Origin: Sphingopyxis sp. H073
GTDB taxonomy: Bacteria; Pseudomonadota; Alphaproteobacteria; Sphingomonadales; Sphingomonadaceae
Length of the DNA stretch: 64,000 bases
Assembly (NCBI RefSeq): GCF_001468395.1
Contig: NZ_LNSG01000007.1
Coordinates: forward strand, 124,001 to 188,000
Direction: 5' to 3'
The notes beneath the pieces were generated by a model, which saw only the letters and a list, made by a program, of their open reading frames with translations, searched no databases and had not been told where the DNA came from. Made by a program: the position numbers and the translations under genes. Position 1 is the stretch's first letter; every line of letters begins with the position of its first letter. Below, one piece after another: positions 4,734 through 45,459 of the stretch.

Positions 4734-4824
4734 GCTATTTCTCCCTCAAAGCCCTTTGCATCCTTCCACTCCGTCGCCCCGAGCGAAGACGAGGGGCTCG
4801 TTCGGGGAAGCGGGTTGTTGGATG

Positions 4825-6387
4825 TCATCTCTCTGTTGCCGCGAGCAGCCTGCGGCTTTCCTCGTTGATCTGTCGGCAATGTGCGATCTCGGCCGCCGTC
4901 ATGGCGTCGTCCCAGCCGAGTAACGCGCCCATCGCCTCGGCGGCGGGCGCCAATGTGGCCAGCCCCGCATCCTCGTCGAACCACGCCCGCGCGCTCCGCC
5001 GCACCCAATAATCTTCAAGGCTGGCAGCGCCCTCGTGCGTGACCGCGCGTGCGGCTTCGGCGGCGACATCACAGCCCGCGATCACGATCTCGTTTGCCTC
5101 GTCGCCATACAGCCCCGCCAGCCGCTCGGCCGCCAGCGGATCGAGTCCGGCAAGTCGCAACTCGCGAAAGCCGCCCGGCAGCGGCACCTCGGCGGTTGCA
5201 CAGGGCAGGGCGCTCTTGCCCAACCGCTCGACCGCCAGATCGACGACGCGTTCGGCCATCGCGCGATAGGCGCTGAGCTTGCCCCCCGCGATCGACACCA
5301 GCCCGGTGGGCGAGGTCCAGATTTCGTCCTTGCGCGACACCTCGTTCGCTTTCTTCCCCGGCTGCGCGATCAGCGGCCGCACCCCCGACCAGAGCGAGAC
5401 GATCTCGGCGTCGCGGATCGGATCGATGGCCAGCGCCGCCTCGGTCGCGCGCAGCAGATAGTCGATGTCGCCCCGCGTCGGCGCGGGCCAGTAATCGGCC
5501 CCCTCGTGGAACACATCGGTCGTCCCGATATAGGTGAACGCCGCGCGCGGCACGACGAAGATGCTGCGCTTGTCGGGCGCGCGAATGATCAGCGTCGAAT
5601 GGACCGGGAGCCGCGCGCGCGACAGCACCAGATGGATCCCGCGGCTCAGCGACAGCCGGGTATCGCCTTCGCCCGTCTCGAGCCCGCGCACCGTGTCGAC
5701 CCATGCGCCCGCCGCGTTCACCACCAGCTTCGCCTTGATCCGGGCGCCCAGCCCGTCGCCCAGCGTCGAGGTCGCGACCAGTCCGCCCTCGATCAGTTCC
5801 GATGCCGCCGCATGATTGACCACCACCGCGCCTGCACCCTGCGCGCTGCGGATGTTCGCGAGTACCAGCCGCGCATCGTCGGTCAGGAATTCGGGATAGA
5901 TCACCGCGCCGCTCAGCCTGTCGGTGCGCAGCAACGGCTCGCGCCGTTGCAACGCCTTCAGCCCGATCACCTCATGCTTCTCGGCCTCGGGCACCCCGCC
6001 GAGTTTCTCGAAGGTCCAGAGGCCGGTCCGCAGCTTCGCGGTCATCGCCATGTTCGTCGTCGGGATCAGAAAGGGGGTCAGCCGAGTCAGGTGCGGGGCG
6101 ATCCGCCGCAACACTTGCCGCTCCGACGCCGCTTCCTTGACCAGCGCGATATCGCCCTGGCCAAGATAGCGTAGCCCGCCGTGGATCATCTTCGACGACC
6201 GGCTGCTCGTCCCGCTCGCATAGTCGCGCGCCTCGACCAGCGCGACCGACAGACCGCGCATCGCCGCATCGCGTGCGATCCCGGCGCCGGTGATCCCGCC
6301 TCCAATTACCGCCAGGTCGAACGTCCGCGCTTCCAGCTCGGCAAAGACCTGTCGTCGCTGCCGCGTGTCGACCGCAGTCCCGCTCAC
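4825..6387 (-). CDS. glpD: FAD-dependent glycerol-3-phosphate dehydrogenase
   Basis: The 520-residue protein is a membrane-associated flavoenzyme that oxidises sn-glycerol 3-phosphate to dihydroxyacetone phosphate. The FAD Rossmann motif LAVIGGGITGAGIARDAAMR is at about 26-45, followed by YASGTSSRSSKMIHGGLRYL, highly characteristic of GlpD/GlpA. The C-terminal DAO domain contains GGKLSAYRAMAE. The GTG start overlaps the GH31 stop by four bases (6384-6387), so translation is probably coupled. This makes GlpD the best evidence that glycerol or glycerol phosphate is a product of the locus. Confidence 0.95.
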   Translation of the reverse strand: MSGTAVDTRQRRQVFAELEARTFDLAVIGGGITGAGIARDAAMRGLSVALVEARDYASGTSSRSSKMIHGGLRYLGQGDIALVKEAASERQVLRRIAPHLTRLTPFLIPTTNMAMTAKLRTGLWTFEKLGGVPEAEKHEVIGLKALQRREPLLRTDRLSGAVIYPEFLTDDARLVLANIRSAQGAGAVVVNHAAASELIEGGLVATSTLGDGLGARIKAKLVVNAAGAWVDTVRGLETGEGDTRLSLSRGIHLVLSRARLPVHSTLIIRAPDKRSIFVVPRAAFTYIGTTDVFHEGADYWPAPTRGDIDYLLRATEAALAIDPIRDAEIVSLWSGVRPLIAQPGKKANEVSRKDEIWTSPTGLVSIAGGKLSAYRAMAERVVDLAVERLGKSALPCATAEVPLPGGFRELRLAGLDPLAAERLAGLYGDEANEIVIAGCDVAAEAARAVTHEGAASLEDYWVRRSARAWFDEDAGLATLAPAAEAMGALLGWDDAMTAAEIAHCRQINEESRRLLAATER

Positions 6388-31214: not shown

Positions 31215-31390
31215 CTGCCAAAACTCTCTAGCAAGAGTGTGATATCAGGGGACGATTTGGCGCTTTCGTCCAATCGCGACCCGGTCGCGGGGTGTAATTG
31301 CGCCTTGCGACCCAGAAGAGTTCTTCCTCGTTCGAGGACGGAAATCTTCATCTGGCGCCCGCCGGTTCCATTCCGGCCGGCGCTTTTTTT
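31215..31390 (+). ncRNA. Candidate structured small RNA with terminator
   Basis: No gene covers 31189-31717. From about 31240 the plus strand contains successive stems: GGACGA with TCGTCC, GGGT with ACCC, CCTCG-TT-CGAGG nested within GAAGA and TCTTC, then an intrinsic terminator. The total length of about 150 nt is like 6S-type RNAs, but I cannot assign a family. It could also be the trailer of the acyl-CoA dehydrogenase operon. Confidence 0.3.
31354..31390 (+). terminator. Intrinsic terminator
   Basis: GGCGCCCGCCGG and CCGGCCGGCGC form a strong GC stem around TTCCATT, followed directly by a run of seven T. It ends either the acyl-CoA dehydrogenase operon or the candidate small RNA. Confidence 0.75.
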
Positions 31391-31692
31391 GTCCGCGATC
31401 GCCGCCCCGCCCGAATGGCCGTTAGAAAAGCCGCCGGAGCGACACCCAAAGATCATGCTTCACGTCGATCGCGGAGACCGGCGTTTAGCCTCGGCAAGGC
31501 GCGCCCTTGCGGGGCGATCCTGGATCACTGCTGCTTTTTTCGAAGTCCCGCAGGACTGTTTGGTGCGGTCGAGAGGGAAAAATTAAGATCCCAGCGCAGC
31601 GCAGCGCACCTCACCGATCATCGAATTTACTCTCATATTTTGATATGCTTACCTCATCCAATATCACTCCGTCTCATCCAATCTTATGCGTT

Positions 31693-31711
31693 GAGGTGGA
31701 CTAGAAGGTGG
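31693..31711. repeat. AGGTGGAC repeat, left copy (island edge)
   Basis: AGGTGGAC-TAG-AAGGTGGAC occurs just before the recombinase remnant. The same AGGTGGAC-N3-AAGGTGGAC arrangement is at 34541-34560 beside tRNA-Leu. They may be recombinase arm sites or the edges of a lost element. Confidence 0.4.
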
Positions 31712-31717
31712 ACCCGT

Positions 31718-32765
31718 TTGCGCATAAACGCCCTTTCGAAATCGAGTTCGGTTTCGCTCCCGCCTGGCAAGCATGCCGACGGCCAAGGGTTGTGGTTTGT
31801 GAAGCGAACACAGGGAACGGGTAAGTGGTTTTTATGCCTCACCATAAATGGCCGCCGCCGTGAAATGGGGCTTGGGCGATGGCCGGATGTATCCATAGCT
31901 GAGGCGCGGGAAAAAGCAGAGGCTGCTCGGCGAACCTTTCGCGAGGGGAAAGACCCGGTCTTCGAAAGAGCTAAGCTAAAGTGCGTAGCCAAGCCGCTGA
32001 CGGCCAGGGAGGTAATTGACGACTGCTTCGAGGCCAGGAAAGCCGAACTGAAGGGGGAAGGCAAAAACGGTAGGTGGATGAGCCCGCTTCTCGTCCACGT
32101 GATTCCCAAGATTGGCCAATATCCCATCGAGGAGGTAGATCAGCATGTACTGAAACAGACGCTGGCGCCGATTTGGCATGAGAAAGCGGAGTCTGCTGAA
32201 AAGGCACTCAACCGCATCCAAATCGCGCTGCGGCACCCAGCCACGCTCGGGCTGTCGGTCGACCTTCAGGCTACGATGAAGGCCAAGGCGCTCCTTGGCA
32301 AGCAGCGGCGAACCACGACCCATATTCCTTCCATGCCCGATGCTGAGGTGCCCTCCTTTTATAAATGGTTGAAGGGACAAACGACGGTGTCAGCAAGCGC
32401 GCTTCGCCTTCTGATCCTGACGGTGTCCCGTACTACCGAGGTCCGCCTCTCGGCTTTCCCAGAATTCTAAGAGGAAATTTGGACCCTACCGGACGAGCGC
32501 ACGAAAACGGGCATTGGCCGCTGAATTCCACTCGTTGCCGAAGCGCAGGAGATTGTGCGAAATCGCGTTGCAGCATCAGGCACGAACTTTCTGTTTCCAG
32601 CATACTGCGGCCAGCCAATTTCGGACGCCGCAATGGCGACGTTGATGAAACGCGCCGGTCTCGAAACCCGGCCGCATGGATTCCGGGCGAGCTTTCGAAC
32701 TTGGGTCGAGGAGAAGACGGATGCCCAGTTCGAAGTCAAAGAATCTTGCCTGGGTCGTCGCGGTC
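31718..32765 (+). pseudogene. Decayed P4-type tyrosine recombinase (integrase)
   Basis: The frame begins near TTG 31718 with an arm-binding DUF4102-like domain (KHADGQGLWFVKRTQGTGKW, RREMGLGRWPDVSIAEARE). It continues through the core domain and then meets TAA at 32468 and TGA at 32522 in the same frame. Beyond them the catalytic-domain motif HGFRASFRTWVEEKTD is still readable. The expected LGHR is LGRR and the catalytic tyrosine region is missing where the frame runs into the neighbouring gene. It is a dead integrase marking an old island next to tRNA-Leu. Confidence 0.85.
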
Positions 32766-33251
32766 GTAATAACCGTTCGCTGATGCGGGCACCCATTCGC
32801 CGCCCGGTCGATAGTCGCCTTCTCCGCGACTGGACGCCGCGTAAGTGACCCAGCGGCCATCGCTGCCATATCGACCGTTGGGCGGACCATCGACCCATAT
32901 CCCGTCACGATTATAATAGCCGCGGGCATCGGAGGAGTTCACCCCGGTGGCGTGCCAGCGATTTTCATTGTCGTAATAGCCAAAGGCATCGCGGCAATCG
33001 CGCGTCGGTTTGGCGATCTGGTTGGCGAGAACGGCTCCTGCGGCGGCGCCGACCACGGTTCCGACCGTCTTGTCGCCACGACCGGCGACGACATTGCCGA
33101 GCACGCCGCCGGCCGCCGCTCCACCGATGGTGGCGACGACGCGCGTCGAGCGCTGTTCTTCGCAGGTCGCCTGCGACTGCGTTCGTGCGCCGGCGATGGA
33201 CGGAACAAGGGCGATGGCGGCGATATTCGCCGCGAGAATAAACCTGTACAT
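32736..33251 (-). CDS. Glycine-zipper exported protein
   Basis: The 171-residue protein starts at ATG 33251 with AGGAG seven bases upstream. A signal peptide (MYRFILAANIAAIALVPSIA) is followed by Cys and a glycine-zipper 2TM region (VVATIGGAAAGGVLGNVVAG, then VGTVVGAAAGAVLANQIAK). The C-terminal half has repeats of the type GYYDNENRWHATG and GYYNRDGIWVDG. The last residues (DPGKIL) are encoded by sequence overlapping the recombinase remnant, so the natural 3' end may have been replaced. It is probably an outer-membrane or periplasmic envelope protein. Confidence 0.75.
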   Translation of the reverse strand: MYRFILAANIAAIALVPSIAGARTQSQATCEEQRSTRVVATIGGAAAGGVLGNVVAGRGDKTVGTVVGAAAGAVLANQIAKPTRDCRDAFGYYDNENRWHATGVNSSDARGYYNRDGIWVDGPPNGRYGSDGRWVTYAASSRGEGDYRPGGEWVPASANGYYDRDDPGKIL

Positions 33252-33299
33252 TTGGGGGCTCCTGGAGCTGACAAGATGCCGCTCGCAATTAAACAACGC

Positions 33300-33440
33300 T
33301 CAGTATTTTTTATAGTTCCCCTATTTCCCCCGTTTCCTGAAATTATGGTTTCAAGATTCGATTTATTTTTTCATATCATGATAAATATATTGGGTAATTT
33401 ATATTGTTTCTAATCGGGATTTTATCAACGGTCTTGGTAG
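33300..33440. other. AT-rich gene-free stretch in the island
   Basis: This stretch has long A/T runs (TTTTTTATAG, GATTTATTTTTTC) and is strikingly less GC-rich than the rest of the window. No coding frame is supportable. It marks foreign DNA between the glycine-zipper gene and the hydrolase remnant. Confidence 0.6.
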
Positions 33441-33547
33441 ACGGGTGGGAGATTTGATGAGATGTGCGCAGAATATCCCCGTCGCCGCCTGAGCCGGCAC
33501 GCGAAAAATCAGGCTGAAATGACGGGCGGGAGTGAACGCACCGCTGG

Positions 33548-34366
33548 CCTTGCACCAAACAGCCTGCCGCGGGCGATCAGTCGCGCCCTGCGGCCCATAT
33601 CGTCGTCACAGTTGGCTACGACCCCGATCGAATTACAGTACGTCAATTATTGAGTCACAGCGCTGGACTTTTCGATCACGCCAGTGACCCGCGATTTGCC
33701 GAAACCTTTATGGCCGATCCCGGACGCGTTTGGACTCCGTCTGACCTCTTAGGGCTAATGACCGAATATGGTGATCCGCGGAGCGTACCCGGAATGGAGT
33801 TCAGTTATTCGGACGATGGCTATATCCTGCTCGGCAATATCATCGAACGCATTACCGGCAAATCGCTGGCTTCGGCAGTTCGTGAGGAGCTTGGCTTTTC
33901 TCGCATCGGGGTGCTCGACACATGGTGGGAAATTCTGGAAGAGCCGCCCGCCGGCGTCGTTCCTAGGACCCGTCAGTGGATCGGGAATCGTGAGGTAACG
34001 AACGTTCACGCCTCCGTCGATCTCTTTGGAGGTGGGGGCTTGCTAATGTCGGCGCGCGACATGGCGATATTCTGGAAGGCGCTCTTCGAGGGCAAGATAT
34101 TTGCTCAACCCGGTACCCTCGATGAGATGCTGCGGCAGGGATCACATAAAGACTCTGATCGCTACCGGCTGGGAATGTTCGCCGAACAATTCAATGGCCG
34201 AACATTCTACTGGCACAGCGGGTTTTGGGGAACTTATGCACTTTACGATCCGGCCACTCGGACAGCAGTAGCCGGAGTAACGACGCAGCAGTTGGCCTTT
34301 CGAGATTTGGTGGCCATCGCGCGTAGGCAGGTGCAAGGGCTTGAGAGCCAAGGGACTGAACATTAG
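33548..34366 (+). pseudogene. 5'-truncated beta-lactamase-family serine hydrolase
   Basis: The open frame can be read from about 33548 (YDPDRITVRQLLSHSAGLFD) to TAA at 34366 without a plausible start; TTG 33650 is the first start-like codon and lies inside a conserved motif. GMEFSYSDDGYILLGNIIER carries the YxN-like position (YSD) of class C-type esterases, and FYWHSGFWGTYALYDPATR the HxG motif. The N-terminal SxxK nucleophile is missing, so the protein should be inactive. Composition is like the rest of the island. Confidence 0.8.
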
Positions 34367-34540
34367 GCGCCACGGTTTAACGACCGCTAACTGAAACTCC
34401 TCTCCATTAGCTGCCTGACCGCTGTCGGCCAGTTGCTGCCATATTTGTTTGCGATGCGTTCAAAAATAACAACAATTTGAATGAGATATCCTGGCGACAT
34501 CGCGCTGACGCCGGAAGGTCGATGCTGGACTGCATTCACA

Positions 34541-34560
34541 AGGTGGACCGTAAGGTGGAC
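34541..34560. repeat. AGGTGGAC repeat, right copy
   Basis: AGGTGGAC-CGT-AAGGTGGAC lies about 60 bp from the 3' end of tRNA-Leu and mirrors the copy at 31693. The remaining sequence between the hydrolase remnant and the tRNA (34367-34616) contains no supportable gene. Confidence 0.4.
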
Positions 34561-34616
34561 TGCAAATTGCAAAAATCGACCTAAGACTTTGAAAATACGC
34601 CATATTCTGGCGATGA

Positions 34617-34703
34617 TGGTGCGGTCGAGAAGACTCGAACTTCCACGGCCTTTCGGCCACAACGACCTCAACGTTGCGCGTCTACCAGTTCCGCCACGAC
34701 CGC
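34617..34703 (-). tRNA. tRNA-Leu, anticodon GAG, CCA encoded
   Basis: Read on the reverse strand, GCGGTCG (5') pairs with CGACCGC (3'), followed by discriminator A and an encoded CCA. The anticodon stem CAACG/CGTTG encloses TTGAGGT, giving GAG (decodes CUC and CUU). A variable arm GTGGCCGAAAGGCC is present, as expected of a class II tRNA. tRNA-Leu genes are frequent integration sites, consistent with the decayed island next to it. Confidence 0.95.
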
Positions 34704-34860
34704 ACATCATGATGGTCCGGATCGCGTCCGGCACCAGGTAGGAGCGGGCGCCTAGCAAAGCTTTTCGGGCGATGCAAGCGAGCTGGGGCGCTTTTATTTT
34801 TTTGCAGGTGCGAAGCCAGAAGTCCGCGGCTTCGGCGGGTGTCACCAAATGGACTCCAAA

Positions 34861-34913
34861 GAGTCATCCAACTGTCATCGCTCTGGCGTCAGACCGTCAT
34901 CGAATCACCCTAG
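34861..34913 (+). promoter_or_regulatory. Pho box and promoter of the lipoprotein-TonB receptor unit
   Basis: Four heptamers recur every 11 bp: GAGTCAT (34861), CTGTCAT (34872), CTGGCGT (34883) and CCGTCAT (34894). This matches the PhoB consensus CTGTCAT-N4 in period and sequence. CCCTAG follows seven bases after the last heptamer, where a -10 element is expected. The lipoprotein start lies about 100 bp downstream. The other half of this intergenic region shows nothing further. Confidence 0.75.
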
Positions 34914-35009
34914 TGGCGGCGGCACCGGGGGCAAGGTGGTGCTCATCCTTCGTTCGCCGGTGGTTTATCACAGCGCCCAACGCGGCGCACACCGGGAACG
35001 GAGAATTTC

Positions 35010-36602
35010 ATGGCGGCTTTCGCACGCGTTCGTTTGATCATGCTCACCAGCGTGGCCTGTTCCACCCTTGCCGCGTGCGGCGCCGACGACATCGCGTCGC
35101 CGGGTGAAGGTGGCACGATCATTATCAACCCGACCCCGACCCCGCCGTCGGTGACTCCGGCTGCGGGCTGTCCGACGATCAGCGGTGGTTCGCTGACCGA
35201 CAGCGGCACGATCAACAATCCGTCGATCGGCAGCTTCCGCGTCTGCACCCTGCCGTCCGTCATCACCGGCAGCACCACGCTGCCCAAGATCGCCGGCTTG
35301 GTCTATCGCATCAACGGCCGCGTCGATGTCGGTTCGGACCAGGGGCCGACCGAAGAAACGTCCGATCCGGCCGACGTCGTGCTGACGATCGAACCGGGTG
35401 TCATCCTTTACGGCGAATCGGGTCCGTCGTGGCTGAACGTCAACCGCGGCAACCGCATCTCGGCCGTCGGCACGCCCACGCGCCCGATCATCTTCACCAG
35501 CCGTGACAATATCCAGGGCCTGAACACCGAGAATTCGTCGGGCCAGTGGGGCGGTGTGGTGCTGAGCGGCCGCTCGCAGATCACCGACTGCGCATCGGGC
35601 ACCGCGACGCCGGGCACCAACGCCTGCGAACGCCAGACCGAAGGCGCGGTCGACCCCGCGCTCTATGGCGGCGTGCTCAACAACGACAACAGCGGCCGGA
35701 TGAGCTATGTCCAGATCCGCTTCTCGGGCTATATCCTGTCGGGCAACAGCGAACTCCAGTCGCTGACGCTGCAGGCGATCGGTTCGGCGACGCAGATCGA
35801 CCATATCATGTCGTACAACAGCTCGGACGACGCGCTCGAAGTCTTCGGCGGGCACGCCCATGTGAAGCATTTGATCGGTATCGGCGCCGAGGACGATAAC
35901 CTCGACACCGACGTCGGCGCGAAGGCGAACTTCCAGTACGGCATCATCGTGCAGCGTCCGAACGTCGGCGACGCGATGATCGAGGCCGACACCGACAATG
36001 CGTTCGACGGCAACACGCCGCGCCAGAACACCCGCGTCGCGAACTTCGTCTTCTACCAGAATTCGCAGAACGCCTCGGCGGACCAGGCGTCGATGCTGCT
36101 GCGCGGCGGCACCGACTATGGCGTGTACAACTCTGTGCTGGTCAGCCCGAACAACCCCTGCCTGCGCATCAGCCGCACGCAGACTGCCTCGGGTACCCAG
36201 GACGCGGCGATCGACGAGTTCGGCGCCCCGATCTTCCGTTCGGTGCTGATGCAGTGTTCGTCGACGAAATATATCGACAGCGGCATCACCGCCGGTGCGA
36301 CGGCGGCCATCTTCGGCACGGGTACGAACGGCAACAATGACGCCTATACGCCGACGCTGACCAGCCTCTACATCAACGGCGCGACCGAAACGGCCGTGAC
36401 GCCGTTCAACGTCTCGACGCTCAACGGCCAGACGTTCAACTCGATCGAACTGACCCGCGCCGGCTTCTTCGACCAGACGACCTATATCGGCGCGGTCAAG
36501 GATGCGACCGACACGTGGTTCCAGGGTTGGACCTGCAACAGCGCCACCGCCAACTTCGGTACGGGCAACACCGGTCTGTGCACCTCGCTGCCGACCTTCT
36601 GA
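35010..36602 (+). CDS. Secreted beta-helix lipoprotein
   Basis: The 530-residue protein starts at ATG 35010 with CGGAGAA upstream. The lipobox LAAC puts the lipidated Cys at position 23, followed by GADD and a Pro/Thr linker. From about residue 115 the pattern VVLTIEPGVILYGESGPSWL, ISAVGTPTRPIIFTSRDN and SGQWGGVVLSGRSQITDC is that of right-handed parallel beta-helix proteins. No protease or phosphatase site is evident. With a Pho box in front, a TonB receptor behind and a type II secretion operon downstream, it is a good candidate for a surface-exposed, T2SS-exported lipoprotein in phosphate starvation. Confidence 0.75.
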   Translation: MAAFARVRLIMLTSVACSTLAACGADDIASPGEGGTIIINPTPTPPSVTPAAGCPTISGGSLTDSGTINNPSIGSFRVCTLPSVITGSTTLPKIAGLVYRINGRVDVGSDQGPTEETSDPADVVLTIEPGVILYGESGPSWLNVNRGNRISAVGTPTRPIIFTSRDNIQGLNTENSSGQWGGVVLSGRSQITDCASGTATPGTNACERQTEGAVDPALYGGVLNNDNSGRMSYVQIRFSGYILSGNSELQSLTLQAIGSATQIDHIMSYNSSDDALEVFGGHAHVKHLIGIGAEDDNLDTDVGAKANFQYGIIVQRPNVGDAMIEADTDNAFDGNTPRQNTRVANFVFYQNSQNASADQASMLLRGGTDYGVYNSVLVSPNNPCLRISRTQTASGTQDAAIDEFGAPIFRSVLMQCSSTKYIDSGITAGATAAIFGTGTNGNNDAYTPTLTSLYINGATETAVTPFNVSTLNGQTFNSIELTRAGFFDQTTYIGAVKDATDTWFQGWTCNSATANFGTGNTGLCTSLPTF

Positions 36603-36621
36603 GGCTTTTGGCTTCGACCGG

Positions 36622-36647
36622 GAGGGAGCGGCGCGCGCCGCTCCCTC
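36622..36647 (+). promoter_or_regulatory. Perfect 26-bp palindrome between lipoprotein and receptor genes
   Basis: The stem GAGGGAGCGGCGC pairs with its full complement directly after the lipoprotein stop. No T-run follows, so it is more likely a stabilising or attenuating hairpin that favours the lipoprotein over the receptor than a full terminator. Confidence 0.55.
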
Positions 36648-36691
36648 TCGCATATCTTCCAGATTTTTAAGGATCCCAAGGGGTGATCGCC

Positions 36692-39484
36692 ATGTCCAAG
36701 CCGCTCCCGCTCGCCAGCCTGTTGTTGATTTCCACGGCGCTCGTCGCGCCCGCCACGGCCATGGCGCAGTCCGAGCCGGGCACGGAAACCCCCGCGCCGC
36801 CCGCGGCCGACCCCGCCGCCGAAACGCCGGTCGATCCGGCCGACCCCGCCGCCGAAACGCCGGCCGACGTGGCCGCCGAAGAGGCCGCCCAAGACGAAAC
36901 CGACGTGTCGATCCCGGGGGCCGAGATCGTCGTCACCGGCCGCCGCAACGCCAATATCGAGCGCACCGCGCCGCAGGTCGTCTCGGTACTCGGCGCCGCC
37001 GATATCGCGCGGACGGGCGAGGGCAATATTGCCGGCGCGCTGGGGCGCGTCACCGGCCTCAGCGTCGTCGGCAACGGCTTCGTCTATGTCCGCGGCCTTG
37101 GCGACCGCTATTCGCTCGCGCTGCTCAACGGTTCGCCGTTGCCGAGCCCCGAGCCGCTGAAGCGCGTCGTGCCGCTCGATATCTTCCCGAGCGGCATCAT
37201 TGCCTCGTCGCTGGTGCAGAAAAGCTATTCGGCGAATTTCCCCGGCGAGTTCGGCGGCGGCGTGATCAACCTCACGACCAAGGCAGTCCCCCGCGATCCC
37301 TTCCTGACGATCGGTGGCAGCATCGGCGGCAATTCGGAAACCACCGGCCAGCTCGGCTACACCTATTACGGCACCGGCAGCGACTGGACCGGCTTCGGCG
37401 ATGGCGGCCGCAACCTGCCGTCGGCCTATCGCGCGTGGCGCGCCTCGGGCCTTCGCATCAACGATCCCAGCGTGAACCAGCAGGCGATCGCCGGCCAGTT
37501 CGTGACCGCGCGCAATGCGCTCGTCCAGACGAACAACGACATGCCCGTCAACTGGGGCGCGAACATCACCGGCGGCAAGTCGTGGACGATCGGCGGCACC
37601 GAGATCGGCCTGATCGCGACAGCGGGCTATACCAGCAAGTGGCGCACGCGCGACGTGACGCAGCAGACCGCGAACGCGCTCGACCTGTCGTCGCTCAACA
37701 CCAATATCAATCGCGTGATCACCGACAACCGCGTCGTCGTGAACGGCCTGCTGGGCCTCAGCGCCGAATTCGGCGAAAACAAGGTTCGCTGGACCAGCCT
37801 TTATATTCGCGACACGATCAAGCAAGCGCGTCTAGGCGCCGAGGATCGCCCGTTGACCGCCGACTCCAACCCTGGCGTCAGCTTCCAGTACCAGGACACC
37901 GCCTGGTATGCGCGCCAGTTGATCGACACCCAGTTCGTCGGCGAATTCCAGCCGTTCGACGACCTCGATATCGACGTCCGCGCGAGCTATGCCAATTCGC
38001 AGCGCGAAGCACCGTTCGAGCTGAGCTTCCTCTATAGCCGGTCGAACAGCGCGACCGATCCCTTTGGCCAGTTCTTCACCAACACGCTGAACACCGGCCA
38101 GCGTCCGGGCAGCGCATCGATCGCCTTTTCGGACCTCAACGAAAACCTCTATTCGGCGGGGATCGACTTCACCTACGAGATCGCGCCGGGCATCAAGGCG
38201 GTCTATGGCTATGCCTATAGCGACACGAACCGCGTCACCGAACGCCGCGACTTCCTGTTCCAGGGCAACAACGATATCCCGCTGGCCGTGTCGCTGCTGC
38301 GTCCCGACCTGCTGCTGTCGCAGGCGGTGATCTGTTTCCCGCCGCTCAATCCGCCGACCGACCCCAATTGCCCGGCCAACCCGAGCCCGACGGGGATCAG
38401 CCTGGTCGACAGCACGGGTTCGAACCCGACGTTCCGCGCGATCCTGCGCAACCATGCGGCCTATTTCCAGATTCAGGCCGACCTTCTCGACGGGCTGAAC
38501 GTCAACATCGGCGCGCGCTACGAAACCGCGGTCGAGCGCGTGAGCGCGGTGCAGGTCTATACCGTCAACCCGACGCTGCCGCCCGACACCAACCTCAATC
38601 GCAATTACCTGCTTCCCGCCGCGACGATCACCTACGAAATCCAGCCGCAGATGCAGGTTCGCCTCAGCGCCTCGAAGACGATCGCGCGGCCGCAGTTCCG
38701 CGAACTTGTGTTCCAGTCCTATTATGACCCGGACACCAACCGGAGCTTCCAGGGCAACCCGCAGCTTGTCGACAGCCAGCTCTACAATGCCGAAGGCCGC
38801 CTCGAATGGTATTTCGCGCCCGAACAGCGCGTGTCGATCGGCGGCTTTTGGAAGAAGATCAAGAATCCGATCGAAACCTATGCCAGCTTCGACGGCAACA
38901 GCGTGACGACGCGCTTTGCCAACGCGCCCGAAGCGACGCTCTATGGCGCCGAGTTCGAAGTGCAGAAACATTTCGATCTCAGCGGCTGGGGCGACGGCTT
39001 TTTCGCGACGCGCCGCGGTGTGTTCATCGGCAACTATACCTGGTCGAATTCGAAGCTGAAGGTCGGCGCCGACGATCCGGTCAAGGCCTTCCCCTTCACC
39101 GGCGCAACCCTGGCCAGCCAGTTCTTCCGCGACGGGGCGCCGCTGACCGGCCAGTCGGACCATCTGGTGAACGTCGAATTCGGCCTCGAGGATACCGAAA
39201 AGCTGTCGCAGCAGACGATCCTGATCTCCTACGCGTCGGACCGCATCACGCGGCGTGGCCCGTCGGGTCAGCCCGATATCTTCGAAAAGCCCGGCATCCA
39301 GGTCGATTTCGTCGCGCGGCAGGGCTTCCCGCTGTTCGGCAAGGAGCTGGAGATCAAGTTCGAGGCGCGCAATATTTTCGGAACCAAGTACAAGGAACTG
39401 CAGCAGAATGGTGACAACACCATCTACTACAACCTGTACAAGACCGGCACGACCTTCTCGCTTGGCGGGTCGCTGAAATTCTGA
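36692..39484 (+). CDS. TonB-dependent outer-membrane receptor, phosphate-module partner
   Basis: The 930-residue receptor starts at ATG 36692 with AAGGGG eight bases upstream. A signal peptide (LLLISTALVAPATAMAQ) is followed by a Pro/Ala/Glu-rich linker of about 70 residues, then IVVTGRRNANIERTAPQVVS and the plug with FVYVRGLGDRYSLALLNGSP, a subclass motif differing from that of the receptor at 8572. The beta-barrel ends in SLKF. It lies 90 bp after the lipoprotein gene under the same Pho-box promoter. It may import a phosphorus-containing compound captured or processed by the lipoprotein. Confidence 0.9.
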   Translation: MSKPLPLASLLLISTALVAPATAMAQSEPGTETPAPPAADPAAETPVDPADPAAETPADVAAEEAAQDETDVSIPGAEIVVTGRRNANIERTAPQVVSVLGAADIARTGEGNIAGALGRVTGLSVVGNGFVYVRGLGDRYSLALLNGSPLPSPEPLKRVVPLDIFPSGIIASSLVQKSYSANFPGEFGGGVINLTTKAVPRDPFLTIGGSIGGNSETTGQLGYTYYGTGSDWTGFGDGGRNLPSAYRAWRASGLRINDPSVNQQAIAGQFVTARNALVQTNNDMPVNWGANITGGKSWTIGGTEIGLIATAGYTSKWRTRDVTQQTANALDLSSLNTNINRVITDNRVVVNGLLGLSAEFGENKVRWTSLYIRDTIKQARLGAEDRPLTADSNPGVSFQYQDTAWYARQLIDTQFVGEFQPFDDLDIDVRASYANSQREAPFELSFLYSRSNSATDPFGQFFTNTLNTGQRPGSASIAFSDLNENLYSAGIDFTYEIAPGIKAVYGYAYSDTNRVTERRDFLFQGNNDIPLAVSLLRPDLLLSQAVICFPPLNPPTDPNCPANPSPTGISLVDSTGSNPTFRAILRNHAAYFQIQADLLDGLNVNIGARYETAVERVSAVQVYTVNPTLPPDTNLNRNYLLPAATITYEIQPQMQVRLSASKTIARPQFRELVFQSYYDPDTNRSFQGNPQLVDSQLYNAEGRLEWYFAPEQRVSIGGFWKKIKNPIETYASFDGNSVTTRFANAPEATLYGAEFEVQKHFDLSGWGDGFFATRRGVFIGNYTWSNSKLKVGADDPVKAFPFTGATLASQFFRDGAPLTGQSDHLVNVEFGLEDTEKLSQQTILISYASDRITRRGPSGQPDIFEKPGIQVDFVARQGFPLFGKELEIKFEARNIFGTKYKELQQNGDNTIYYNLYKTGTTFSLGGSLKF

Positions 39485-39498
39485 AGAAATCCCCGTGC

Positions 39499-39526
39499 GT
39501 GATCCCGGCTGTGGCCGGGGTCACGC
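39499..39526. repeat. Hairpin after the TonB receptor gene
   Basis: CGTGATCCCGGC and GCCGGGGTCACG pair around TGTG. The sequence is related to the family A dispersed repeats. No T-tract follows; it may act as a 3' stabilising stem. Confidence 0.5.
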
Positions 39527-39559
39527 CCGAGGCAAGCCGTGCAGGGCGGACTCGCCCGG

Positions 39560-39612
39560 CTGACAAAAAACTGTAATCTTCCTGTCAACTGATTGTCACC
39601 GATCGTCCCTAG
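39560..39612 (+). promoter_or_regulatory. Pho box and promoter of the type II secretion operon
   Basis: Four heptamers recur every 11 bp: CTGACAA (39560), CTGTAAT (39571), CTGTCAA (39582) and TTGTCAC (39593). CCCTAG follows seven bases after the last one, the same spacing and element as at 34861-34913. gspC starts about 47 bp downstream. This is the clearest regulatory array in the window and predicts PhoB control of secretion. Confidence 0.82.
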
Positions 39613-39658
39613 GCGATTCGCGAGACCGTTTTTCAGTCTGGGGGACAGGGACAAGTTC

Positions 39659-40540
39659 ATGGCAACGCTGATGTCCGGATCGGCCGTTCGGTTGCCGCGC
39701 GTGCTGCCCGCCTGGCTCCGCGCCGGCAAGCGGTCGCCGCGCGCGATCCTCCCGCTGCTCGTCATCGGACTGCTCGGCGCGCTGCTCGTCTGGCAGAGCG
39801 TCCGATTGCTGTGGACGCTCGTCGTGCCGCTGTCGCCGCTCGGCGCATGGCAGCCGCAGACCGCGGTGATCGCATCGCCCGCCGAACGCCGCGCGCTCTT
39901 CGCCGGCTTCGATCCTTTCTTCCGTAACGCCGTGCAGGGGCCCGCGAGCGCCACCGTCACCTCGGCAGGGCTGACCCTGTTCGGGGTCAACATCAACGAG
40001 GCTACCGGCGGCGGTTCGGCGATCATCGCGGGCGAGGACGGAATCCAGACCAGCTATGCCGTCGGCGACGAGATCGCGCCGGGGCTGAAGCTTGTCGGCG
40101 TCGCCTTCGACCATGTGCTGCTCGACCGCGGCGGGGCGCGCGAAAGCCTGTTCCTCGACCAGAGCGCCGCGGCGCCGGTCGCAACCCCGGGCGCGGCGCT
40201 TCCGGCGCCGACGCCCGAGCCCGGGTCGGCGGGCGCGAACGGCGTCTCGCCGAGCGGCGAGATTTCGCCCGACGCCCTGAAGGCGGGGGTTGCCTTCGCG
40301 CCGCGGGCCGAGAATGGCAAGGTCACCGGCCTGCTCGTCCAGCCGCAGGGCGACGGCGCCGTCTTCCGCGCCGCTGGCCTGCGCCCCGGCGACGTCATCC
40401 GCTCGGTCGGCGGCCGCCCGATCGGTTCGGCCAGCGACGCCGCCTCGCTCGCGAACCAGCTTTCGCCCGGCGCGCGGATCTCGGTCGAGGTCGAACGCGG
40501 CGCCAGCGTCGTCCCCATCGCTCTCATCCTCTCGAAATAA
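39659..40540 (+). CDS. gspC: Type II secretion protein GspC
   Basis: The 293-residue protein starts at ATG 39659. One membrane helix (ILPLLVIGLLGALLVWQSVR) is followed by the periplasmic homology region (TLFGVNINEATGGGSAIIAG and YAVGDEIAPGLKLVGVAFDH). A C-terminal PDZ domain (VFRAAGLRPGDVIRSVGGRP) comes last. GspC connects the inner-membrane platform with the GspD secretin and helps recruit substrates. It opens an unbroken run of overlapping gsp genes. Confidence 0.93.
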   Translation: MATLMSGSAVRLPRVLPAWLRAGKRSPRAILPLLVIGLLGALLVWQSVRLLWTLVVPLSPLGAWQPQTAVIASPAERRALFAGFDPFFRNAVQGPASATVTSAGLTLFGVNINEATGGGSAIIAGEDGIQTSYAVGDEIAPGLKLVGVAFDHVLLDRGGARESLFLDQSAAAPVATPGAALPAPTPEPGSAGANGVSPSGEISPDALKAGVAFAPRAENGKVTGLLVQPQGDGAVFRAAGLRPGDVIRSVGGRPIGSASDAASLANQLSPGARISVEVERGASVVPIALILSK

Positions 40541-40548
40541 CGGATATC

Positions 40549-42759
40549 ATGCGCCTCAAACTGTCACTGATGCTTGCCGCCGCGCTCGTTTCCGCTGCGC
40601 CAGCCCCCGCGTTCGCGCAATATACGCTGAACGTGCGCGACGCCGATATCCGCGCCTTCATCCAGGACGCGGCGCGGATCACCGGGCGCACGTTCGTGAT
40701 CGACGGCCGCGTCAACGGCAAGGTCTCGGTCGTCACCGACCGGCCGCTGTCGCGCAGCGAATATTTCGAGATTTTCCTTGCCACCTTGCGCTCGAACGGG
40801 CTTGTCGCGGTGCCGGGTCCGAACGGCAGCTACCGTGTCCAGCCGATCGACGGCGCCGCAGCGCAGCCGGGCCGCATCGGCAGCAGCGGCGCGGCGCAGA
40901 ACCAGTTCGTGACCGAGATCATCCGCCTGAAGCATATCGACGCCGTCGCGGCGGTCGAAACGCTGCGCCCGCTCGTCAGCCCGCAAGGGTCGCTCACCGC
41001 GAACCGCAACGCGAACAGTCTCGTGGTGGCGGACTTCGCGGACAATATCCGCCGCATTCGCGCGCTCGCGGCGAGCATCGACCGCGACAGCTCGACCAGC
41101 CAGATCGTGACGCTGAAAAACGCCGGCGCGCGCGAGATCGCCGCCGCGCTCACCGCGCTCGTCCCCGCGGCGGGCGAGGGGGCGAAGGCGCCGATCGCGA
41201 TCGTGCCGGTCGACAGCAGCAACGCGATCGCGCTGCGCGGCGACCAGGCGCTCGTCGCGCGTTTCGTCTCGATGGCGCACGACCTCGACGCGAAGGCGGC
41301 GGGCGGCACCGAGCTGCGCGTCTATTGGCTCGAACATGCCAATGCCGAGACCTTGCTGCCGACGTTGCAACAGCTCGTGGGGGGCGGCAGCGACCCCGCG
41401 CAGAAGGCCGGCTTGCCCCCGGCATCCTCCTCCTCGTCGACGACCACGGGCGGCAGCACGCCGGCGCCTGTGGCTGCCACCACCAGCACCCCGACCTCGG
41501 TCAGCGGCTCGGGCGGCAGCATCGCGACGCGCGGCCCTGCGATCGTCACGCGCTATGAGGGCGCCAACGCGATCATCGTCGCGGCGAACAGCGAGGTGCA
41601 GCGGATGCTCGGCGAGCTGATCCGCCAGCTCGACAGCCGCCGCGAGCAGGTTCTCGTCGAGGCGATCGTCGTCGAGATCGGCGACGACGCCGCGAAGCGC
41701 CTCGGCGTCCAGTTCCTGCTCGGCGGCAAGAATATCCCGTTCGTCGCGACGAACTACAGCAATGCGCAGCCGAATATCTTCACGCTTGGCGGCGCTTACG
41801 CTGCGACCAAGCTCACCGAGGACAAGACGACGGTCGACGGCACCACGGTCGTCACGCAGACGTCGAGCGCGCTCGGCAGCAGCCTGCAGGAAGCTGCTGC
41901 AGCTTCCTTGCTTTCGGCGACCGGCGGCTTCGCGGGGTTCGCGGGCGATATCGGCAAGAACACGATCTTCGGCGCGATCATCAACGCAGTGAAGTCCGAC
42001 ACGACTTCGAACCTGCTTGCAACGCCGCATATCGTCACGCTCGACAATCAGGCCGCGAAATTCCTCGTTGGGCAGGAAGTGCCGATCACGACGGGCGAAG
42101 CGCTCAGCGACAATTTCGACAACGCCTTCCGCACCGTCCAGCGCGAAGAGGTCGGCATCAAGCTGGAGGTCACGCCGCAAGTCAATGGCGCCGGCGAGGT
42201 CAAGCTCTTCCTCCGTCAGGAAGTGTCGAGCGTGGCGGGACCGGTCTCGTCGCGCAACAGCGACCTGATCCTCAACAAGCGCTCGTTCGAAACCGTGCTG
42301 ACCGTCGACGACGGCGAGATCCTGGCGATCGGTGGCCTGCTCAACGACGACGAGCGCAAGACGATCGAGCGCATCCCGCTTTTGAGCGACATCCCGCTGC
42401 TCGGCGAACTGTTCAAATCGCGCAGCCGGAGCCGGTCGAAGACGAACCTGATGGTGTTCATCCGTCCGACGGTGCTGCGCAATCGCGAGGATAATGCCGC
42501 GCTGACCGCGCGCCGCTATGGCTATATCCGCGACTTCCAGCTCCAGCGGAATCCGGGCGAGGAGCCCGCGATCGATACGCTGGTGCGCGATTATCTGGGC
42601 ACGGTGCCGCCGGTTCCGAGCGCGGCGACCCCGACCGACGTCACGGTCGGTCCCGTCAACCTGCAGGAACTGCGCGGTCCCGACGGCAAGGTGATCAGCA
42701 CCGGCGTGCCGCCCTCGATTTCGCAGGCGCCCGCCCCTCCCGCCGGAGACTATCCGTGA
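40549..42759 (+). CDS. gspD: Type II secretin GspD
   Basis: The 736-residue protein has a signal peptide (LMLAAALVSAAPAPAFAQ), the N0 domain (YTLNVRDADIRAFIQDAARI), N1-N3 domains and the secretin core with QEVPITTGEALSDNFDNAF and VGIKLEVTPQVNGAGEVKLF. A Ser/Thr/Gly-rich insert (about 290-325) interrupts the N3 domain, as is usual. It forms the outer-membrane channel. The C-terminal tail is Pro-rich, and no pilotin gene (gspS) is nearby, so assembly may be pilotin-independent or use another lipoprotein. Confidence 0.96.
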   Translation: MRLKLSLMLAAALVSAAPAPAFAQYTLNVRDADIRAFIQDAARITGRTFVIDGRVNGKVSVVTDRPLSRSEYFEIFLATLRSNGLVAVPGPNGSYRVQPIDGAAAQPGRIGSSGAAQNQFVTEIIRLKHIDAVAAVETLRPLVSPQGSLTANRNANSLVVADFADNIRRIRALAASIDRDSSTSQIVTLKNAGAREIAAALTALVPAAGEGAKAPIAIVPVDSSNAIALRGDQALVARFVSMAHDLDAKAAGGTELRVYWLEHANAETLLPTLQQLVGGGSDPAQKAGLPPASSSSSTTTGGSTPAPVAATTSTPTSVSGSGGSIATRGPAIVTRYEGANAIIVAANSEVQRMLGELIRQLDSRREQVLVEAIVVEIGDDAAKRLGVQFLLGGKNIPFVATNYSNAQPNIFTLGGAYAATKLTEDKTTVDGTTVVTQTSSALGSSLQEAAAASLLSATGGFAGFAGDIGKNTIFGAIINAVKSDTTSNLLATPHIVTLDNQAAKFLVGQEVPITTGEALSDNFDNAFRTVQREEVGIKLEVTPQVNGAGEVKLFLRQEVSSVAGPVSSRNSDLILNKRSFETVLTVDDGEILAIGGLLNDDERKTIERIPLLSDIPLLGELFKSRSRSRSKTNLMVFIRPTVLRNREDNAALTARRYGYIRDFQLQRNPGEEPAIDTLVRDYLGTVPPVPSAATPTDVTVGPVNLQELRGPDGKVISTGVPPSISQAPAPPAGDYP

Positions 42760-44249
42760 GCGACATCGAACCGGTGGCGCCTTCCCCGGCGCCGGTTGAT
42801 ATTCCCTATGGCTTCGCGCGAAACCACGGCGTCGTGATCGCGCAGGAAGAGGGCGGGCGCTGGCTCGCTACGCTGCGCGAAGGCAGCGACCCCGCGGTGC
42901 TGATCGAGGTCAAACGCTTTCTCGCGCAGCCGATCCGGGTTGCGACCGCGAACGCGGCGGATTTCGACCGGCTGCTTTCGGACCATTATGCGGTCGACGC
43001 CTCCGCAGCGGCGATGGCGGGGACGCTCGATGGCAGCGACCTCGAACTCGGCATTCCGAGCGCCGAGGATCTGCTCGACAGCGCCGACGACGCCCCGGCG
43101 ATCCGGCTGATCAACGCGATCATCGCCGAAGCGGTGCGGCAGGGCGTCAGCGACATCCATATCGAACCCTATGAAAGCGGGCTCGTCGTGCGGATGCGCA
43201 CCGACGGCGTGCTGCGCGAGCATCTGCGGATGCCGCCGCACGTCGCCCCCGTCGTCGTCAGCCGCATCAAGGTCATGGCGCGCCTCGACATCGCCGAGCG
43301 CCGCGTGCCGCAGGACGGGCGCATCGCGCTGACGCTGGCGGGCAAGGCGGTCGACGTTCGCGTCTCGACCCTGCCGAGCCGGGCCGGCGAGCGCGTCGTG
43401 ATGCGTATCCTCGACAAGGACACGGCAGGGATCGACTTCGACGTTCTGGGACTGTCGGGCGAGGCGGACCGGATTTTGCGCGAGGCGCTGGCCGAACCCA
43501 ACGGGATCATCCTCGTCACCGGCCCGACGGGTTCGGGCAAGACGACGACGCTCTATGCGGCGCTGAAGCAGCTCAATGACGGCCAGCGCAACATCCTGAC
43601 GGTCGAGGATCCGGTCGAATATGCCGTCGACGGCATCGGCCAGACGCAGGTGAATGCGAAGGTCGGGCTCGACTTCGCGGCGGGGCTGCGCGCGATCCTG
43701 CGCCAGGACCCCGACGTCGTGATGGTCGGCGAAATCCGCGACCGCGAGACCGCCGATATCGCGGTGCAGGCGTCGCTTACGGGTCACCTCGTGCTCTCGA
43801 CGGTCCACACCAACGATGCGGTCGGTGCGATCACGCGCCTGAAAGACCTGAAGGTCGAGCCCTTCCTGCTCGCCTCGACCCTGCGCGCGGTCTTGGCGCA
43901 GCGGCTTGTCCGCAAGCTGTGCGACCATTGCCGCGAGCCGGTGCAGGCCGACAACAGCGTCGCGGCGATGCTCGGGCTCGACATCGGCACGGTGATCTGG
44001 CGCCCGAAGGGCTGCGACCAGTGCGGCCACACGGGCTTCAAGGGCCGGATCGGAGTGTTCGAAGCAATCAAGGTCGACGAGACCGTGCGCCGCTATATCT
44101 ATGCCGGCGGTGATGAATCGATGATCGCAAAGCACGCCTTCCTGAAGGCCCCGACGCTGGCGTCGGCGGCGCGCGCGATGGTCGCCAAGGGGCTTACCAC
44201 GCCCGAGGAGGCGATCCGCATCGCGCGGCGCGAGGATGTCGATGCCTGA
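42756..44249 (+). CDS. gspE: Type II secretion ATPase GspE
   Basis: The 497-residue protein starts in a GTGA overlap with gspD. The Walker A motif GPTGSGKT is at 256-263, with the Asp box RNILTVEDPVEY, Walker B VVMVGEIRDRETADI and His box LVLSTVHTNDA after it. The tetracysteine zinc site is CDHC and CDQCGHTGFKGRIG. It is the cytoplasmic motor that drives pseudopilus assembly, docking on GspL and GspF. Confidence 0.97.
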   Translation: MSDIEPVAPSPAPVDIPYGFARNHGVVIAQEEGGRWLATLREGSDPAVLIEVKRFLAQPIRVATANAADFDRLLSDHYAVDASAAAMAGTLDGSDLELGIPSAEDLLDSADDAPAIRLINAIIAEAVRQGVSDIHIEPYESGLVVRMRTDGVLREHLRMPPHVAPVVVSRIKVMARLDIAERRVPQDGRIALTLAGKAVDVRVSTLPSRAGERVVMRILDKDTAGIDFDVLGLSGEADRILREALAEPNGIILVTGPTGSGKTTTLYAALKQLNDGQRNILTVEDPVEYAVDGIGQTQVNAKVGLDFAAGLRAILRQDPDVVMVGEIRDRETADIAVQASLTGHLVLSTVHTNDAVGAITRLKDLKVEPFLLASTLRAVLAQRLVRKLCDHCREPVQADNSVAAMLGLDIGTVIWRPKGCDQCGHTGFKGRIGVFEAIKVDETVRRYIYAGGDESMIAKHAFLKAPTLASAARAMVAKGLTTPEEAIRIARREDVDA

Positions 44250-45459
44250 TTATCGCTATGTTGCGATCGACAGCCAGGGCCGCGAGCGCAAGGGGCGGCT
44301 GGCCGCCGCGAACGACGATGCCGCCCGCGCCGACCTGGTCCGCCGCAAGTTCCATATCGTCGCGGTCGAGGAGGCGGGGACGAAGCCGACAACCGGCCGC
44401 TCGTTGCTCGCCTTTCGCCGGGGCAAGCTTTCTTCCAAGGAGCTCGCGCTGTTCACGCGCCAGCTCGCCACGCTTGTCGAGGTCGCGCCGCTCGAAGAGG
44501 CGCTGCGCACGCTGACGCGGCAGAGCGAGGCCGAAAGCGCGCGTGCGGTGATCGGCGACGTCCATGCCGGCCTGCTCGAAGGGCGCCGTCTTGCCGACGC
44601 GATGGCCCGCCAGCCGGGCAGCTTTCCGCCGCTCTATCGTGCGATGGTCGCGGCGGGGGAGACGACGGGCAGCCTGACGACGATCCTCGCGCGGCTTGCC
44701 GACCTGCTCGAACGCCAGGCCGAGGTGCGCGGCAAGTTGATAGCCGCGCTCGCCTATCCGGTCGTGCTCGCGGTGGTAGCGATCGGCGTCGTCGCCGCGC
44801 TGATGATCTTCGTCGTGCCGCGCGTCGTCGAACAGTTCAACGACGTCGGGCAGCAGCTTCCCTTCCTGACCCGCGCGGTCATCGCCATCTCGAGCTTCGC
44901 CGCGAGCTGGTGGTGGCTCATCGCGCTGCTGATCGCCGTCGCCACCTTCGGCTGGGTCAGCGCGATGCGCCGCCCGGCGTTCAAGGCCGCGGTCGACGCG
45001 CGGTTGCTGGGGCTGCCGCTGTTCGGGCGACTGCTGCGCGATCTTTACGCCGCGCGCTTCGCGCGCACGCTGTCGACGATGGTGTCGAGTCGCCTGCCGC
45101 TGGTCGAGGGGCTCAGGCTCACCGTGCCGACGATCCGCAACGCCGCGCTCGCCGGCGCCACTGCCAGCATCGTCGATCAGGTGCGCGCGGGCGGCAGCCT
45201 GTCGGCCGCGCTCCGCGACGCCGGAGTCTTTCCGCCCTTGCTCGTCTATATGACCGCGAGCGGCGAAAGCGCCGGGCGGGTCGAGCAGATGCTCGAGCGC
45301 GCCGCCGACTATCTCGAACGCGAGTTCGACCGTTTCACCGCCGCGTCCATGGCCCTTCTCGAACCTGTCATAATTGTCGTTATGGGGTCGTGCGTCGCAC
45401 TCATCATCCTCGCCATCCTGCTTCCGATCCTCCAGTTGCAGAACCTTGCAGGGCTATAA
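44242..45459 (+). CDS. gspF: Type II secretion platform protein GspF
   Basis: The protein has 405 residues from ATG 44242 (MPDYRYVAIDSQGRERKG), with GAGG upstream, overlapping gspE by eight bases. The two T2SS_F repeats are visible (FTRQLATLVEVAPLEEALRT and ARTLSTMVSSRLPLVEGLRL), each ahead of membrane helices (VVLAVVAIGVVAALMIFVVP; IIVVMGSCVALIILAILLPI). It is the polytopic core of the inner-membrane platform. Confidence 0.96.
   Translation: MPDYRYVAIDSQGRERKGRLAAANDDAARADLVRRKFHIVAVEEAGTKPTTGRSLLAFRRGKLSSKELALFTRQLATLVEVAPLEEALRTLTRQSEAESARAVIGDVHAGLLEGRRLADAMARQPGSFPPLYRAMVAAGETTGSLTTILARLADLLERQAEVRGKLIAALAYPVVLAVVAIGVVAALMIFVVPRVVEQFNDVGQQLPFLTRAVIAISSFAASWWWLIALLIAVATFGWVSAMRRPAFKAAVDARLLGLPLFGRLLRDLYAARFARTLSTMVSSRLPLVEGLRLTVPTIRNAALAGATASIVDQVRAGGSLSAALRDAGVFPPLLVYMTASGESAGRVEQMLERAADYLEREFDRFTAASMALLEPVIIVVMGSCVALIILAILLPILQLQNLAGL

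Follow-up and report, generated by a model that had tools for sequence, protein, structure and literature searches.

The Hxc system of P. aeruginosa, a gammaproteobacterium, is a type II secretion system (T2SS) that is linked to phosphate limitation and serves the phosphatase LapA; we know of no elpS/TonB receptor pair in it. The preliminary description of the locus reported here named Hxc as the precedent. The T2SS of our locus would share with Hxc the tie to phosphate limitation, but it differs from this phosphatase LapA system in its elpS/receptor pair, and a closer precedent in Caulobacter had been overlooked. Hxc further uses a self-piloting liposecretin, HxcQ (PMC2996285, accessible text).

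For Caulobacter crescentus, the accessible text of Le Blastier et al. 2010 (PMC2996285) describes a cluster of cc0170 (elpS), cc0171 (TonB receptor) and cc0172-0184 (gspC-N). According to the same text, ElpS production is specific to phosphate starvation, the protein is located at the cell surface, its release is T2SS-dependent, probably via a secreted protease, its secretion is tied to alkaline phosphatase activity, and the cc0170-T2SS tandem is also found in Sphingomonas alaskensis, Hyphomonas neptunium, and Xanthomonas campestris. Expression of gspE and gspL was seen in rich as well as poor medium and differed 1.7-fold, mGFP-GspL levels were similar in both media, and the T2SS was called constitutive; cc0171 was also expressed in both media (PMC2996285). 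The small change of gspE/gspL and the expression of cc0171 in both media therefore speak against strict control of the machine and the receptor. A 47-gene PhoB regulon of Caulobacter, in the accessible part of a 2024 article, has the T2SS and various TonB receptors among its categories (PMC11208175, citing Lubin et al. 2016).

The preliminary description regarded the lipoprotein, TonB receptor and phosphate-controlled T2SS as a different module. This did not hold up, as the gene set and its phosphate induction are already known from Caulobacter (PMC2996285, PMC11208175). The present analysis adds a separate conserved Pho-type T2SS promoter, a beta-helix model of ElpS, a recurrent hairpin behind elpS and, in two genomes of the same genus, a diverged elpS-receptor pair. 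Our literature search, which covered mostly articles outside subscription, did not find the sphingomonad promoter anatomy of the elpS/T2SS cluster, anything joining Sphingopyxis, type II secretion and phosphate starvation, or anything joining Pho box, CTGTCAT and alphaproteobacteria. We consider it highly probable that the locus represents the Caulobacter elpS-TonB receptor-T2SS cluster in its sphingomonad form, with PhoB acting at both arrays described below on two phosphate-starvation promoters.

Architecture of the locus

The window is the whole stretch of Sphingopyxis sp. H073 DNA that was analysed (64,000 nucleotides). It holds the following features, all on the plus strand.

34839: extra heptamer GTGTCAC in phase with array 1 (array plus extra heptamer, 34839-34900), plus strand, sequence reading
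34861-34900: Pho-box array 1, heptamers starting at 34861, 34872, 34883 and 34894 (11-bp step), plus strand, sequence reading
34908-34913: CCCTAG, likely -10 element of the elpS promoter, plus strand, 7 bases past the last heptamer of array 1
35010-36602: elpS homologue, 530-aa lipoprotein, predicted right-handed beta-helix, plus strand, lipobox and structure model
36619-36650: GC-rich hairpin in the elpS-receptor intergenic region, plus strand, without a T-run directly after
36692-39484: TonB-dependent receptor, cc0171-like by position, plus strand, plug and barrel domains
39560-39599: Pho-box array 2, likewise of four heptamers with an 11-bp period, plus strand, sequence reading
39607-39612: CCCTAG, likely T2SS promoter -10 element, plus strand, 7 bases past the last heptamer of array 2
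39659-40540: gspC, plus strand, PF11356
40549-42759: gspD secretin, plus strand, TIGR02517 above cut-off
42756-44249: gspE, plus strand, PF00437 and GSPE_N1E
44236-45459: gspF, plus strand, PF00482
45374-51520: gspG, H, I, J, K, L, M, N and prepilin peptidase (gspO), plus strand, profile matches, ORF starts unrefined

The TonB receptor gene lies directly 3' of the lipoprotein gene and is followed by gspC onward, the same lipoprotein, TonB receptor, T2SS order as in the Caulobacter cluster. The receptor ORF is listed from GTG 36683, and its likely start is ATG 36692. The T2SS genes (gspC, D, E, F, pseudopilins G-K, L, M, and prepilin peptidase) are present, with gspL, whose match was under the Pfam cut-off, assigned by position. 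The gspO gene has the same orientation as the cluster in the window and the reverse orientation in Caulobacter. Array 1 precedes elpS and the receptor gene, and array 2 precedes gspC, gspD-N and the prepilin peptidase gene; the gene calls agree here with the preliminary description, and the sequence with its two four-heptamer arrays at 34861 and 39560, their 11-bp period, the seven bases and CCCTAG. The window has a strong Pho-type promoter for gspC itself, whereas the accessible text of PMC2996285 mentions no Pho box, and the PhoB regulon of PMC11208175 is defined by expression in a bacterium of another order, with no promoter sites named for these genes in the part accessible.

ElpS has the lipobox LAAC, and its Cys23 is invariant across 36 rows. 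We detected no sequence match to it in Pfam, NCBIfam or PDB. The structure model supports a beta-helix as the fold class, which had been proposed from the sequence. The window ElpS is 94% identical (best segment) to ElpS of Sphingopyxis soli and about 50% identical to the homologues of Asticcacaulis (Caulobacteraceae). Sphingomonas alaskensis is the species now named Sphingopyxis alaskensis. The window lipoprotein is a candidate homologue of cc0170, judged from gene order and the statement on S. alaskensis in PMC2996285. In 32/61 loci examined, the intergenic hairpin behind elpS has stems better than those of shuffled sequence (p<=0.02), although its sequence diverges, and the hairpin at 36619-36650 may set different levels of ElpS and receptor.

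The DNA next to the elpS promoter contains ORFs at 31298-32470 (integrase-like) and 33650-34366 (beta-lactamase fold, partial) and, on the minus strand, tRNA-Leu(gag) (34617-34703). The region 31298-34703 is possibly the edge of an integrated element.

Pho-type arrays and -10-like elements

Array 1 reads GAGTCAT ccaa CTGTCAT cgct CTGGCGT caga CCGTCAT and array 2 reads CTGACAA aaaa CTGTAAT cttc CTGTCAA ctga TTGTCAC. Both are 11-bp direct repeats with a heptamer near CTGTCAT, and this heptamer and step, the PhoB consensus and spacing in the accessible text of PMC2648988, were used as an outside yardstick. Arrays were scored by matches to four CTGTCAT copies at a fixed step, to a maximum of 28. 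Array 1 scored 23/28, the top score of the window, and array 2 scored 22/28. At least 20/28 was reached in the window by the 11-bp step alone, the steps of 8, 9, 10, 12, 13, and 14 giving at most 19. Dinucleotide shuffles of the whole window (n=200) had maxima of 16-20 (20 once, 19 six times, the others lower), and the binomial expectation is 0.0005 window sites scoring >=22, so that the matched architecture exceeds chance, as the preliminary description had argued.

CCCTAG occurs four times in the window on both strands, and two of the copies follow arrays 1 and 2 at one and the same distance; the -10-like element had no role in the selection of the arrays. In the E. coli pstS promoter the Pho boxes substitute for the -35 element and stand about 10 bases from the -10 element.

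Genome-wide search for Pho boxes

The genome (4,309,020 bases, 27 contigs) was searched on both strands with a consensus pattern rather than a trained weight matrix. The three-heptamer pattern with <=3 mismatches gave 7 matches and its backward-read control gave 0. Two of the seven are the window arrays (array 2 with 2 mismatches), and two others, which overlap each other (C4:309154-309193), precede the genes of a PhoU_div protein and a PHO4-type phosphate transporter. The rest lie before a phosphomannomutase gene, before a cupin gene, and within an ORF with a sub-threshold integrase match.

By four-heptamer score the elpS (23) and gspC (22) arrays rank highest in the genome, alongside the promoters of a phosphate-selective porin near phoB (21) and the PhoU_div-PHO4 pair (21), with the cupin gene also at 21; phosphomannomutase scored 16. 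A genome scan had been proposed for ranking the arrays with the pst/pho genes. The arrays stand at the top together with PhoU_div-PHO4 and the phosphate porin, but pstS, the canonical PhoB target, has just a weak two-heptamer site here (four-heptamer score 13), the PhoX and PhoD genes have no array, and the cupin gene reaches the same score as the phosphate promoters. The PhoX gene and two PhoD genes were considered as co-regulated T2SS cargo and rejected, being without an upstream array (scores 15, 13, and 13).

The strong array before PhoU_div-PHO4 belongs to L043, about 3982-5194 (G000:C4, about 307981-309193), where it precedes an ORF with NUDIX and PhoU_div (DUF47) matches and then the PHO4 transporter gene; a NUDIX-PhoU_div fusion in one ORF is, to our knowledge, unusual. 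The cupin array is in L045, about 4687-5733 (G000:C1, about 149686-150732), before a cupin/JmjC-like gene without a plain phosphate link.

The two-heptamer search was rejected as too noisy (166 matches with <=3 mismatches, 58 in the backward control). Among the 19 two-heptamer sites with <=2 mismatches, 3 are in the window, 1 is before the phosphate porin gene, 1 is before the PhoU_div-PHO4 pair, and 1 is upstream of pstS, the listed match being oriented away from pstS. For the other 13 sites a gene was scanned in 11 cases (all except L016 and L026), and no plain phosphate link was detected.

A single PhoB was found above the family cut-off (C5:229970-230641, 338.1 bits, cut-off 296.2), with pstS about 5 kb away at C5:235199-236047. 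OmpR-family regulators other than PhoB likewise bind tandem sites, the genome has seven further matches to the OmpR-type DNA-binding domain, and the matches near the cupin and phosphomannomutase genes are not plainly phosphate-linked, so another direct-repeat regulator of this family could use the arrays in response to a signal other than phosphate. We regard this as quite improbable. PhoB sites have just this heptamer, CTGTCAT, and this 11-bp step (PMC2648988), the pattern finds the PhoU_div-PHO4 promoter and, in its two-heptamer form, the phosphate-porin promoter near phoB, and in Caulobacter ElpS answers phosphate and the T2SS answers PhoB (PMC2996285, PMC11208175). Direct control of both promoters by PhoB is very likely, judged from these sequence patterns.

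Recurrence in related genomes

ElpS matches were detected in 138/199 Sphingomonadaceae genomes. The locus set (n=126) consists of stretches from 80 of the 138 genomes, 45 named loci and the window, with a few records present twice. A TonB receptor gene is downstream of elpS within <=600 bases in 126/126 loci, a count that is conditional because the loci were chosen by ElpS. One locus short of upstream DNA and four exact duplicates were dropped, leaving 121 elpS promoters, and 36 gspC promoters remained after duplicates from 39 loci with a same-strand gspC <=2,500 bases from the receptor gene.

An array at p<=0.01 (100 shuffles each) was found in 65/121 elpS and 27/36 gspC promoters, and in both promoters of 25/36 loci, while 56/121 and 9/36 missed this threshold; these promoter counts are not independent events because many rows are close kin, several of them Sphingopyxis. 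The 11-bp step was strictly best against 9, 10, 12, and 13 in 83/121 elpS and 34/36 gspC promoters. Scores >=18 occurred in 59/121 elpS and 23/36 gspC promoters compared with 0/483 control stretches, of which up to four were taken per locus (inside elpS, the elpS-receptor junction, and two inside the receptor gene). Three Asticcacaulis loci of the Caulobacteraceae have arrays scoring 20-21. In the 56 elpS promoters that have no four-heptamer array, the scores for two heptamers were slightly above the inside-elpS control, yet the 9-bp step equalled this, and we base no conclusion on it.

The arrays might instead be functionless chance or compositional repeats, and two-heptamer matches are indeed common by chance, several of the best ones falling inside ORFs. 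This reading is contradicted because the shuffles and control stretches stay below the array scores: the four-heptamer scores exceed all 200 shuffled windows and recur among relatives, and we give it almost no weight.

The -10-like element recurs as well, at one offset in the gspC promoter set and in one phase in the elpS set. Of the gspC promoters with an array (n=27), 14 have CTA[GT] at offset 49, counted from the array start, any other offset occurring at most once, and the column profile has a T (81%) at 50 and an A (96%) at 51 that are as prominent as the heptamer cores. In the elpS promoters with an array (n=65), the motif stands at offset 49 in 17, 71 in 13, and 60 in 5, all in one phase, because the best-scoring register can slip by whole steps. 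The three Asticcacaulis loci have CTAT where CTAG is expected.

PhoB might drive the elpS promoter alone, with the gspC array weak or modulatory and the T2SS essentially constitutive, as concluded for Caulobacter in 2010 from the 1.7-fold rise of gspE/gspL mRNA in poor medium and the steady mGFP-GspL (PMC2996285). We consider this unlikely, since the gspC array matches the elpS array in strength and is present in 27/36 loci with a fixed -10-like element, and the T2SS was placed in the Caulobacter PhoB regulon in 2024 (PMC11208175). The strong separate gspC array favours a PhoB-regulated T2SS in sphingomonads, as in PMC11208175, over the view of PMC2996285.

Linkage between an elpS array and a T2SS within one stretch (32/37 compared with 33/83 rows, Fisher p 1.3e-6; short row L217 excluded; stretch lengths unequal, so that a T2SS just outside is missed) is not claimed, because only 8 independent pairs are available on the starred branches of the ElpS tree, with a median sign-test p of 0.625.

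A class-wide search detected ElpS in 6/190 genomes, the genome of the window among them. No array was found in the ElpS loci of G260 and G346 (scores 15 and 16), which belong to other families of the Alphaproteobacteria. In the family of G379 (f146), outside the Sphingomonadaceae, 55/61 genomes have an ElpS match. Among the 29 loci L242-L270, 9 score 19-22, these including two near-identical pairs and one site beyond the assumed start. The other 20 score 11-17. Upstream sequence was shorter than 200 bases in 12 of the 29. Many ElpS copies in f146 are doubled within one open frame of about 950 residues (L254-L270 and others).

Possible exchange of the elpS-receptor pair

Two loci of the same genus, L106 and L116, compared with window positions 34839-42759, combine conserved flanks with a divergent elpS-receptor pair. 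Their GspD is 88-89% identical to that of the window, compared with 89% for Sphingopyxis terrae (L179); the gspC promoter is 79 and 83% identical (L179, 82%) and the elpS promoter 75 and 78% (L179, 77%). In contrast, ElpS is 51-53% identical compared with 77% for L179, and the receptor 58% compared with 83%. In both trees L106 and L116 fall outside the Sphingopyxis set with the same nearest rows (L115, L136, L126, and L205), in groups of 6 rows each at 98 (ElpS tree) and 97 (receptor tree, by FastTree).

These comparisons, a case of two genomes, are most simply read as a joint swap of elpS and its receptor gene under a retained promoter; accelerated evolution of both genes is a possible alternative. 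Exchange of the two genes together would favour a matched pair.

Discussion

The joint PhoB control that had been predicted for the two promoters is well supported in silico by the shuffles, the genome rank, the recurrence, and the single PhoB gene about 5 kb from pstS. The arrays with their significance and recurrence, the gene identities and the fold class of the ElpS model are results of the analysis, and PhoB binding, promoter activity, surface location and physiology are inferred as follows. Under phosphate limitation PhoR would phosphorylate PhoB. PhoB~P would occupy the heptamers of both arrays in head-to-tail order, replacing the -35 element, and would recruit RNA polymerase to the CTAG-type -10 element 7 bases downstream. 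The first promoter would give the surface beta-helix lipoprotein ElpS and then, beyond the intercistronic hairpin, the TonB receptor, and the second would give the T2SS. ElpS and the receptor would take part in phosphate scavenging at the cell surface, and the T2SS would export phosphate-mobilising or ElpS-releasing enzymes.

A more speculative extension, which we offer tentatively and hold to be rather doubtful, is that PhoB drives the T2SS and the surface pair from separate conserved promoters, with elpS-receptor as an exchangeable cassette between them. The pair would be a matched capture pair for phosphate-bearing polymers, SusD/SusC-like in its working and unrelated in fold, and the hairpin would set an excess of ElpS.

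Taken together, the findings carry the Caulobacter phosphate-secretion cluster over to sphingomonads, where its PhoB-type promoters are explicit and conserved, and the promoter anatomy suggests that the T2SS itself, beyond ElpS alone, is under PhoB. This ElpS, without a sequence match in Pfam, NCBIfam or PDB, and its always-adjacent, apparently co-exchanged receptor provide a testable lead on phosphorus collection.
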